Shown here: positions 2,462 through 19,658 of the stretch, piece after piece
Position numbering within the stretch: position 1 is the stretch's first letter
Layout of the letters: every line of letters begins with the position of its first letter
IMG/VR virus record: IMGVR_UViG_3300044695_002852
Span: 1-21,118 of that record
Reading direction: 5' to 3' (one strand)
DNA: 21,118 bases
Source: a virus
Program-made: the position numbers and the translations under genes
The notes under the pieces: generated by a model
Seen by the model: the letters and a program-made list of their open reading frames with translations, nothing else
Told to the model about the DNA's origin: nothing
The model's database searches: none

Positions 2462-3319
2462 CTAGGGCAGGATTGCGTTGATTTGTTCTGCTATCCATTG
2501 AGCTACAGGGGATGCTACTCCGTTGCCACACATTTTGTATCGAGTGGTATCAGCGTTGCTTTTACCGTCGGCACGGTGCAGTGTGTGGTTGTCGGGCCAT
2601 CCCATAAGGCGTTCACATTCTATGGGGGTTAGCCGGCGTACCTGATGGGTGACTACTACGCCTGTTGATTGTTTGGTGCCAGCTCGAATTGCGTGATGTG
2701 GACCTTCTTCGGTCACACTGTCGTTGTATTCATCGTAGGCGAACGCTACCCCGTGTTGGCTAATAGTATCCAGCGTGAAACACGGGTCGCCTTCTTGTCC
2801 GAATCCTGGTCCTTGTGGTCCAGCGGTGTCTGATCTCCCGATTATGGTTCCCTGTATTGGAATCGCTACAGCCTGACCGCCACCTTCCCGCCGAAGCGTT
2901 GGCCACGCTTCGGCTGATGGTTGACAATCTAAACCTTGCGTATGGCTGAAGCCGATTGGTTCAATTTGTTCTTGCATAATGATTAGTTGTCCATCTCTCG
3001 CATTTTCGTGGTTCGGACCTTTATAGTTTCGTTCTTGTAATGTTCCTACAACATCGTGACTTGTGACCTGGGTTATTAGTGGCACGTTATTTCCTCCGGT
3101 ACCCATGCGATGTTTAAGGCATGGGATGATTTCATCTTCGTAGATCCGAACATCATCAACTCTTGTTCCGTCAATGATGAGTACGGTTGCGCGGGTTTCT
3201 GTCCCGTTATCAAACACATTCAATGTCGGTGACACCCCCCCCTCAATCCAGGTTTCATAATCGTCAACCGATTGCGCTCGGCGGCGTTTCGTGAACCACA
3301 AGTTTGCCTTCATTGACAT
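2462..3319 (-). CDS. C5 cytosine-specific DNA methyltransferase, C-terminal part (frameshifted)
   Basis: Carries the C-terminal motifs of a C5 DNA methyltransferase: RRLTPIECERLMGWPDN (motif IX region, target recognition side) and RYKMCGNGVASPVAQWI (motif X, which closes the AdoMet pocket). The preceding 200 residues are a variable region with RRRAQSVDDYETW and GGVSPTLNVFDNG, typical of the long spacer of phage enzymes of this class. It lacks motifs I-VIII, which are in the gene at 3353-4174. The frame is the same as that of the N-terminal part but the stretch between them reads in another frame (see 3264-3400), so this is most likely one broken gene. The nominal ATG at 3319 has no clear ribosome-binding site and is probably not a natural start. 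Confidence 0.75.
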   Translation of the reverse strand: MSMKANLWFTKRRRAQSVDDYETWIEGGVSPTLNVFDNGTETRATVLIIDGTRVDDVRIYEDEIIPCLKHRMGTGGNNVPLITQVTSHDVVGTLQERNYKGPNHENARDGQLIIMQEQIEPIGFSHTQGLDCQPSAEAWPTLRREGGGQAVAIPIQGTIIGRSDTAGPQGPGFGQEGDPCFTLDTISQHGVAFAYDEYNDSVTEEGPHHAIRAGTKQSTGVVVTHQVRRLTPIECERLMGWPDNHTLHRADGKSNADTTRYKMCGNGVASPVAQWIAEQINAILP

Positions 3320-3400
3320 ACTGGTTACCTACCCCTTTGTAGTCTCTTGCCATTAGTGATCCGATGACTGGAACGTAACTAATGTTTCGCTCCCCCCCCC
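3264..3400 (-). other. frame-shifted middle segment of the cytosine methyltransferase
   Basis: Between the two methyltransferase parts, a third frame reads VIGSLMARDYKGVGNQ followed by YVNEGKLVVHE before a stop at 3264-3266. This looks like genuine protein and would join smoothly to RRRAQSVDDYE of the C-terminal part. Restoring the protein needs one added base near the G9 tract (3392-3400, read as G on this strand) or before 3354, and one removed base near the CGCCGCC run at about 3280. The changes cancel, which is why both outer parts share a frame. A sequencing or assembly error, a decayed gene, or slippage-based phase switching would all look like this. Confidence 0.65.
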
Positions 3401-4174
3401 TAGGTCACCACCAGCAGCTTTGATTGTGCCGAAACCTTCGCTGTAGTTAGCGAATGATGATGAAGCGAACGGTGTTTGCTGTTCAACAATCAGATGTTCT
3501 CCTCGGCTTGACGGGACTCCCCCATCACCACCACTTCTAAGGCAACCTGCAACATCGTTGGCAGGGTTTTGCCCCTCTTGTTTGCCCTTCTTAGGATTCC
3601 TTCGGCGGCTTTGGCCGACAGAAAGTATTTGCGATCCACATCCGTTGGCGATTGCAGGATCGAGGACAGCGATGACGAACACCCTTCTACGCCGTTGGGG
3701 GACTCCGAAGAACTGTGCATCCAGGACTGACCATTCTGTGTGATGGCTCCCGATGTCAACCATTTCTTCGAGGACTGCCTCAAAGTCTGCACCGCCGTTG
3801 CTGGAGAAAGCTCCGACGACGTTTTCCCAAATAGCGATTCTTGGATAGGTTCCATTTGTTGCTTCTCTCATTTCTCTGATGATTCGTGTTGCTTGGAAGA
3901 ACAGGTTTGATCTTCCACCTTCTACTAGACCGGCTCGTTTGCCAGCTACCGATAGGTCTTGGCAGGGTGACCCGAATGTAATGACATCTACGGGTGGTAG
4001 TTCTGCTCCGTTGACATCGGATACATCCCACCATCGTGGTACATCGGGCCAGTGATGGGCGAGTACCTGTTGGCAGTGGGCATCCCATTCCACTTGCCAT
4101 CCACATTGCCATCCTGCTGCTTCCAGCCCGATATCAAACCCGCCTACTCCAGCGAATAAACTTCCGAATCTCAT
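3353..4174 (-). CDS. C5 cytosine-specific DNA methyltransferase, N-terminal catalytic part
   Basis: Adds a methyl group to cytosine C5 in DNA with AdoMet as donor. Visible motifs: FAGVGGFDIG (motif I, AdoMet binding, residues 7-16), GSPCQDLS with catalytic Cys71 (motif IV), ENVVGAF (motif VI, Glu117) and FGVPQRRRRVFVIA (motif VIII, 156-169). Motifs IX and X are missing because the reading frame stops at 3353; they are in the gene at 2462-3319. The start ATG overlaps the stop of the WhiB-like gene upstream (ATGA, 4171-4174). In phages such enzymes usually protect DNA from host restriction. As read, this product alone would probably be inactive; with the frame restored it would be a full-length enzyme of about 570 residues. 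Confidence 0.85.
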   Translation of the reverse strand: MRFGSLFAGVGGFDIGLEAAGWQCGWQVEWDAHCQQVLAHHWPDVPRWWDVSDVNGAELPPVDVITFGSPCQDLSVAGKRAGLVEGGRSNLFFQATRIIREMREATNGTYPRIAIWENVVGAFSSNGGADFEAVLEEMVDIGSHHTEWSVLDAQFFGVPQRRRRVFVIAVLDPAIANGCGSQILSVGQSRRRNPKKGKQEGQNPANDVAGCLRSGGDGGVPSSRGEHLIVEQQTPFASSSFANYSEGFGTIKAAGGDLGGGSETLVTFQSSDH

Positions 4175-4551
4175 GCTGATCCCTTCTTGTATGAACTAAC
4201 TCTTGCGTAGTTGCCTTTAACACATGGTTGGCATCGGCATCCACGGGTCCACATTGACCGTGTGCCATGCACTTGTTCGCTGACGGTCAGTTGGTATCTG
4301 CGGTAGCGGCGCTCGTTTGGTGTTTCTCCTGCCCACATTCCGTACACTCTTGCGTCGGGTGCGGATTCAATTTCGTCACATAGTTGCCGGCAGTCTTCTA
4401 TGACGGGACAGGATTCACATATCGCTCGAGCTTGCGCCCATACACGGTCACGGTTGCCTGATCCTTCAGGGAAGAAGATGTCGGTTGGTACTCCGTGGCA
4501 AGCTTTTGCCTGTAGCCATCCGGATTTTACGGCGTTCAAGTTGGCGTTCAC
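4171..4551 (-). CDS. WhiB-like iron-sulphur transcription factor with C-terminal HGT/Cys motif
   Basis: WhiB-like proteins bind a 4Fe-4S cluster through four cysteines and act with the primary sigma factor. Here the ligands are in ACHG, then CESCPVIEDC (C-x2-C-x5-C), followed by the GMWAGE turn and ERRYRR basic patch. An additional C-terminal module HGTRS...RGCRCQPC resembles a small motif common in actinophage proteins, possibly a second metal site. The open frame goes up to a TTG at 4569; I chose the GTG at 4551 because it reduces overlap with the upstream WhiB gene to 86 bases, and the WhiB domain starts soon after. No strong ribosome-binding site decides the start. It is the second of two adjacent WhiB genes. 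Confidence 0.85.
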   Translation of the reverse strand: MNANLNAVKSGWLQAKACHGVPTDIFFPEGSGNRDRVWAQARAICESCPVIEDCRQLCDEIESAPDARVYGMWAGETPNERRYRRYQLTVSEQVHGTRSMWTRGCRCQPCVKGNYARVSSYKKGSA

Positions 4552-4810
4552 GAGGAGACATCCCCCCAAATAATCCGTGTGCTATATAGTTTTCGATTGC
4601 GTACTGTCGGCATTCCAATAGTACAGGGCAGGTGTCGCATAGTTTTCTCCCTTCCCGATATGCGTCTTTTGTGTCTGCGTCTGAGAAGAAGTACCACGAT
4701 GGTGCATCTATACAGGCGGCTTGTTTAACCCACGGTCCTGCTGGTTTGTATAAGACCGGCAGTTGGTAGGGATCTATGTCTTGTGGCTGTTCCTCAGAAT
4801 GGTTCTTCAT
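4466..4810 (-). CDS. WhiB-like iron-sulphur transcription factor
   Basis: A 114-residue protein with the four cluster cysteines at C33 (AACIDAP), C58, C61 and C67 (CDTCPVLLEC), then HGLFGG (79-84) and the basic SPRERQLERRK that contacts DNA in this family. The last 15 residues overlap the next WhiB gene in another frame and look unconstrained. The ATG at 4810 lies inside the end of the SSB gene (17-base overlap). Phage WhiB proteins (e.g. of mycobacteriophage TM4) are known to interfere with host WhiB regulation and septation; a similar host-takeover role is plausible here but is inference. Confidence 0.87.
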   Translation of the reverse strand: MKNHSEEQPQDIDPYQLPVLYKPAGPWVKQAACIDAPSWYFFSDADTKDAYREGRKLCDTCPVLLECRQYAIENYIAHGLFGGMSPRERQLERRKIRMATGKSLPRSTNRHLLP

Positions 4811-5898: not shown

Positions 5899-6144
5899 TT
5901 ATCCGTCTAAACGGAACTTTGATTTCTCTATTTCAAGGGCGGCTGTGAGTAAGCCGATGGTTGTAGTTGCTCGTTGGTTCGGCAAGCCGGAGAATGCAAG
6001 CTGATCTTCGCCTTCGTCATCTATGTAGTTGACGATTAGTGCGTAGCCGGTGATGACTGCGCGGGGGAAGGCTGCTGATAGTACATCCAGCACGGGGTCG
6101 TCGTCAGGAAATGACACGTCATCCACCGTATCACAGATCCGCAA
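5899..6144 (-). CDS. hypothetical acidic protein, start uncertain
   Basis: An 81-codon frame beginning with TTG at 6144; a GTG at 6126, four bases past the upstream stop, is an equally good start. The product is acidic (VDDVSFPDDDPVLDVL), with a hydrophobic centre PRAVITGYALIVNYID and a C-terminal ATTTIGLLTAALEIEKSKF helix. No family recognised. It lies between the Cys/Glu-rich gene and the Rpf-like gene in the leftward operon. Confidence 0.6.
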   Translation of the reverse strand: MRICDTVDDVSFPDDDPVLDVLSAAFPRAVITGYALIVNYIDDEGEDQLAFSGLPNQRATTTIGLLTAALEIEKSKFRLDG

Positions 6145-6325
6145 CGAATCGGTCCCAGCGGTCCTGCATACGGGCTTCGTGGTTGGCTACCAGGGTGTCC
6201 TCATCGGGGCCTTGGTCGCATTCGCATTCTTCGCATTCGCATTCTTCGCATTCGCATTCTTCGCAGTATTCTTCGCTGTCTCCTTCAACAATGTTGAGCA
6301 TCCAGCTGTCGTAATCTGTTCCCAT
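6131..6325 (-). CDS. Cys/Glu-repeat protein, possible metal binder
   Basis: A 64-residue acidic protein. The ATG at 6325 is preceded by AAGAAGGG, a good ribosome-binding site. Residues 18-36 contain three repeats of Glu-Glu-Cys-Glu-Cys, giving seven cysteines in under 20 residues, encoded by three exact 15-base repeats. Around it are ordinary sequences (DYDSWMLNIV before, NHEARMQDRWDRFVADL after). Clustered Cys and Glu suggest metal chelation as in metallothioneins, though no known family fits. No function is established. Confidence 0.7.
   Translation of the reverse strand: MGTDYDSWMLNIVEGDSEEYCEECECEECECEECECDQGPDEDTLVANHEARMQDRWDRFVADL
6218..6262. repeat. three exact copies of a 15-base coding repeat
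   Basis: On the + strand the unit GCATTCGCATTCTTC is repeated at 6218-6232, 6233-6247 and 6248-6262. On the coding (-) strand it encodes the Glu/Cys block of the gene at 6131-6325. Being a multiple of three, copy number can change without shifting frame. Confidence 0.9.

Positions 6326-17670: not shown

Positions 17671-19658
<1,988 letters not shown>

Follow-up and report, generated by a model that had tools for sequence, protein, structure and literature searches.

Phase-variable methyltransferases are already known in bacteria, where the genes of Type I/III enzymes (mod genes, phasevarions) carry slipped-strand repeat tracts. Poly-G phase variation is likewise known for phage receptor-binding proteins, as far as the accounts of the Campylobacter phages extend (Sorensen et al. 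2021, via PMC11868660, PMC8713573). The methyltransferases of Bacillus phages contain tandem recognition domains (PMC8936443), and in M.AquI motifs I-VIII reside on a large polypeptide and motifs IX-X on a small one, with the break in the variable region (PMC3404938). No report of poly-G phase variation in phage methyltransferases turned up in the literature searched, which comprised sources outside subscription journals. The present analysis deals with uncultivated viruses and annotated gut phages that appear to apply poly-G switching to their own anti-restriction enzyme, together with cassette shuffling. We consider it probable that the locus belongs to an actinobacteriophage and encodes a multispecific cytosine-C5 methyltransferase split into alpha and beta. 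The enzyme most likely serves anti-restriction, and slipped-strand poly-G tracts would act as random switches in it.

Overlapping genes for motifs I-VIII and IX-X

The window, which is the whole stretch of DNA analyzed, is the 21,118-bp IMG/VR virus record IMGVR_UViG_3300044695_002852. Two WhiB-like genes, along with genes for SSB, a single-strand annealing protein, and RusA-like and YqaJ-like proteins, suggest that the virus is an actinobacteriophage. Two overlapping WhiB-like genes lie directly 5' of the methyltransferase on the minus strand (4171-4810), and WhiB-like proteins are apparently encoded beside the methyltransferase in two relatives (L004, L010) as well. The stop codon of the upstream WhiB-like gene overlaps the methyltransferase start codon as ATGA (4171-4174, minus strand), by which the two genes are likely to be translationally coupled; the overlap suggests that they form one coupled operon. 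Elsewhere in the window, a perfect 15-bp tandem repeat of 3.3 copies (6216-6265) encodes a Cys/Glu repeat (EECECEECECEEC) in a minus-strand ORF (6131-6325), and a long collagen-like protein with GPTG repeats and tandem repeats is encoded on the minus strand at 17671-19317.

Three-frame translation of the minus strand revealed that frame 0 is open at 4174-3353 (273 aa) and again at 3319-2462 (285 aa), and that the intervening segment, ending in ...ERNISYVPVIGSLMARDYKGVGNQYVNEGKLVVHETPPSAIG and a stop, is readable in one other frame only (3404-3264). The N-terminal and C-terminal parts thus share a frame and the segment between them lies in another, as the original prediction had described, and the poly-G runs were found at 3392-3400 (G9) and 3235-3242 (G8) as it had noted. 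The first piece, referred to as alpha (3353-4174, minus strand), contains the N-terminal part of a C5-methyltransferase (motifs I-VIII) and recognition modules R and X. It matched PF00145 at profile positions 1-177, and its residues 1-170 are similar to HhaI/HaeIII. The second piece, beta (2462-3319, minus strand), contains modules Z, D/T, Y', H, and G and the motif IX-X part, and matched PF00145 at positions 250-323; the C-terminal methylase part with motifs IX-X (2477-2698, minus strand) corresponds to positions 256-323. The core motifs of C5 cytosine methyltransferases are present in the window (PCQ, ENV, QRRRR, and the C-terminal GNGVASP), with the catalytic motifs intact. The same arrangement, with the C part in the frame of the N part and module Y in another, recurs in L041, L047, L089, and L090.

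The relatives, which were gathered by protein similarity and by DNA pattern, revealed that the frame change near 3280 is a conserved overlap of the N-terminal and C-terminal genes without an indel. It directly precedes the beginning of a module, W[FY][TVS]K[RS]RRAQ, and a start codon in the downstream frame (ATG, GTG, or TTG) was found just 5' of W[FY]xK in 101/101 distinct split loci. When the split loci with 20 or fewer open codons were considered, the start codon was present in all 84, compared with 27.8 expected by chance. The upstream stop and the downstream start overlap as ATGA in L037, L096, L098, and L104, and also in L084/L086, the first module of which is different. Eleven single-chain relatives have neither the W nor the tract. 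The candidates for the beta start in the window are ATG 3319, ATG 3313, and TTG 3301 (M-W-F-T-K...), and TTG 3301 has AAGG 5 nt upstream. Since a start codon is always present at the boundary, ATGA overlaps occur, and the single-chain relatives have no W, these sequences indicate that the enzyme is encoded as two genes, alpha for motifs I-VIII and beta for motifs IX-X, as in two-subunit enzymes of the AquI type. The proposal of one gene with two compensating indels is not supported, because the supposed frameshift near 3280 is the conserved boundary of overlapping genes. Naturally separate subunits had been named beforehand as evidence against that proposal, and they were found in part, in the form of a conserved two-gene boundary near 3280. 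The gene overlap is present without G tracts in L010, L039, L048, and L078, and thus the split and the tracts are separable.

The internal stops in one frame might also be taken as signs of a decaying pseudogene. Three identical contigs from different records (L003, L004, L005) have an in-frame TAG in motif VIII (FGVP*RRRRV) and tract 2 out of frame, and because of this additional TAG some copies may be decaying. However, every piece of the enzyme is open and conserved in its own frame across many viruses, and the catalytic motifs of the window are intact, which makes decay an extremely unlikely explanation of the locus.

Length variation of the poly-G tracts

Tract 1 (G9, 3392-3400, minus strand) lies at the end of module X. 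It is read as GGG in frame 0 (GGDLGGGSETLV), as in intact relatives, and in the present tract state alpha ends in ...GGGSETLVTFQSSDH and a stop. Among the relatives, the tract ranges from G8 to G11 and occurs in all three phases. A tract of G10 (L120, L129) or G11 (L084) places modules X and Y in one continuous frame; G9 (the window, L041, L047, L090, L086, L116) brings alpha to a stop soon after GGGSETL(L/V)V. The alpha frame closes within module X itself in L036 and L065/L123. Tract 1 is the site of frame choice, and neither choice is simply wrong. The original prediction had called for one base to be added near G9; the tract length is indeed variable and sets the frame, but G9 already matches the intact relatives in frame 0. 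The opposite view, that G9 is not the shift site since GGGSETLV is in frame with intact relatives, was dropped because the relatives show three phases there. Between L084 and L086, with 95% identity across 2.6 kb, no methyltransferase indel exists other than tract 1. The single-chain pair L224/L228 likewise differs by no indel but tract 1 in 712 bp, and of the two enzymes only one is in frame as a result. Only one pair of at least 95% identity differs in tract 1, and an A/G substitution lies beside the tract in the same pair.

Module Y (ARDYKGVGNQ...GKLVVHE; 3264-3391, minus strand) is out of frame with alpha in the window, and its own stop codon lies inside the beginning of beta. When nine distinct out-of-frame sequences were compared in the frame of module Y itself, 280 synonymous and 17 nonsynonymous single changes were counted. 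This bias indicates that module Y is translated at least sometimes. The conservation of an out-of-frame module is also compatible with programmed ribosomal frameshifting or transcriptional slippage, which would act at the G runs and the alpha/beta overlap and produce a fused enzyme from unchanged DNA; module Y could be reached from G9 by -1 slippage, and this one phase is shared by most of the tract-1 loci. However, a programmed site needs a conserved phase, whereas tract 1 occurs in three phases and tract 2 has 7-9 G. Moreover, tract lengths differ between near-identical viruses, and the overlap is accompanied by a start codon in every case and by ATGA in some. Frameshifting or transcriptional slippage, still conceivable at tract 1, is therefore rather unlikely, and we favor changes of tract length in the DNA itself.

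Tract 2 (G8, 3235-3242, minus strand) is part of beta module Z. The window has it in frame (WIEGGVSPTL), and it is predicted to turn beta on and off. It was in frame in 66 and out of frame in 19 of 85 deduplicated loci, most of which were chosen solely for having a G run at that site, and its lengths were 7, 8, and 9 G. When the tract is out of frame, beta would end ~12 codons further on, without motifs IX-X. Four sets of relatives with 94.7-99.4% identity over aligned stretches of 0.9-5.7 kb have tract 2 as the sole indel, as seen in L182/L212 (99.4% identity, 5658 bp), L116/L118 (99.0%, 4897 bp), L188/L199 (98.9%, 1881 bp), and L169/L170 (94.7%, 1139 bp). None of the viruses found was near-identical to the window. 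A further G8 run is present out of frame in another module of L222 (GKAGGGKGP). Its relative L223 is in frame and has GGC codons in place of the run; with 85% identity overall as well, the two were rejected as a clean tract pair. The idea that homopolymer slippage serves as a switch, which came with a call to look for length variation among related phages, thus gained support at both tracts, each being the sole indel between closely similar viruses, and annotated phage records behave alike.

Distribution of the tracts and recognition modules

We compared homopolymer runs of at least 8 in 79 deduplicated loci found by protein similarity. Inside the methyltransferase, there were 22 runs of G and none of any other base in 111 kb; outside it, there were 2 of G, 2 of C, 13 of A, and 4 of T in 273 kb. 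Coding-strand runs of at least 8 G are thus enriched 27-fold in methyltransferase genes (Fisher odds ratio 27, p=8e-14). Two runs of at least 8 within 170 bp, as in the window, appeared in 2/300 Markov simulations of the window, and the tracts of at least 8 G lie in coding regions at places where length changes alter the frame. The four split relatives without tracts would fit the view that the methyltransferase is simply a natural two-subunit enzyme and its G tracts are mutational noise with no adaptive role. However, diverse viruses have the tracts at the same fixed positions although synonymous codons are available (GGG accounts for 9% of Gly codons in the other ORFs of the window), and together with the 27-fold enrichment this makes mere noise improbable. 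It could also be argued that homopolymers are error-prone and that the window is one metagenomic record. Yet dozens of independent contigs share this frame arrangement and these tracts, annotated phage genomes have them too, the coding-strand G runs are concentrated in the methyltransferase gene only, and no homopolymer exists at the alpha/beta overlap. Because of the recurrence in dozens of independent contigs, sequencing or assembly error is very unlikely as a general cause, and slipped-strand switching remains our preferred explanation.

In more distant relatives (L019, L023, L027), frame changes of this module array coincide with G8-G10 tracts, of which each relative has one to three. Annotated Faecalibacterium phage records carry tracts elsewhere in the enzyme (FP_Toutatis, G9; Lelie, G14; MT836117, G11), and FP_Toutatis and Lelie are 98.5% identical over 5.3 kb with the poly-G tract as the sole indel. 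Tract switching would explain why gene callers break these genes, as in the FP_Toutatis record, which annotates its enzyme as two methyltransferases. Two fecal contigs matching the Toutatis methyltransferase (MT839040 and MT836117) overlap by ~23 bases and end near the poly-G tract, as would happen if a mixture of tract lengths had interrupted the assembly. A pattern scan of IMG/VR found no tracts of the Toutatis type. A tblastn search of phages with the X-Y modules gave no match and thus no isolate of the same clade; genome contigs gave a single weak match.

The window enzyme has ~9 modules, and module order and content vary between relatives, the tandem homologous recognition domains lying between motifs VIII and IX as in multispecific phage C5-methyltransferases. 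L120 and L129 are 97.8% identical downstream and have different recognition modules at one position upstream of module X, a difference attributed to recent cassette exchange. In the alignment of the window beta with SPbeta MtbP (E 2e-10), the matching part is GxxFxExGxPxFTxxTIxxHGVA together with motifs IX-X. Two module profiles placed MtbP 345-373 ahead of 999 shuffles. The modules are thus similar to a recognition domain of the SPbeta enzyme, which is multispecific. Profile-profile comparison among the module types gave no convincing similarity. An AlphaFold model of a single-chain relative was fine in the core, with pLDDT mostly 20-35 in the module array, which is low and makes the array uninformative.

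Proposed switching and comparison with known systems

The frames, gene overlap, tract conservation, sole-indel tract differences, module shuffling, and one-module SPbeta homology are all read from the sequence, and the following scheme is built on them. Motifs I-VIII, which form the catalytic core, would be supplied by alpha along with the recognition modules that come first, and beta would supply the remaining modules and motifs IX-X. Beta would start at ATG/TTG near 3301-3319, inside the DNA encoding the last module of alpha, probably through translational coupling or re-initiation, and the halves may assemble as in M.AquI to methylate phage DNA against restriction. Gain or loss of a G in tract 2, presumably by slippage during replication, would shift the reading frame of beta within ~12 codons, and the enzyme should then be off. 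Depending on the length of tract 1, alpha would stop after X, run in frame through Y, or be cut inside X; this tract should thus turn a single recognition specificity on or off or, in relatives whose enzyme is one chain, the enzyme as a whole. The window would represent the state with beta on and alpha without Y. A more specific form of the scheme, which we rate about as likely as not, is that separate poly-G switches operate in one phage methyltransferase, one turning beta on or off and another adding or dropping a single cassette, which would yield combinatorial methylation specificities and help the phage past differing host restriction. Phase variation of the enzyme in general predicts that a phage stock is a mixture of methylation states, which would alter the range of hosts it can enter.

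The closest counterparts are the multispecific C5-methyltransferases of Bacillus phages (SPbeta, SPR, phi3T, H2), which likewise are phage-borne and combine a C5 core with a tandem array of recognition domains placed between motifs VIII and IX; the two also share a homologous domain (MtbP 345-373) and the character of an orphan enzyme. In contrast to them, the window enzyme has ~9 modules, is encoded by two genes instead of one, has a shuffled module order, and contains poly-G tracts, whereas MtbP has no run of at least 7. The division between motifs I-VIII and IX-X with the break in the variable region is the same as in M.AquI (PMC3404938), but in the window enzyme both subunits carry many recognition modules, and the genes overlap, contain tracts, and reside in a phage. 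With the Campylobacter phages, as far as that system is described in the sources cited above, it shares a hypermutable poly-G tract in a phage gene; the gene is that of a receptor-binding protein there and of a DNA methyltransferase here, where one enzyme can have as many as three tracts. Like the host mod genes and phasevarions, the present locus has repeat tracts of the slipped-strand kind in a methyltransferase gene. The host enzymes are of Type I/III, however; the enzyme here is a C5 enzyme of a phage, and one of its tracts can remove just one recognition module.
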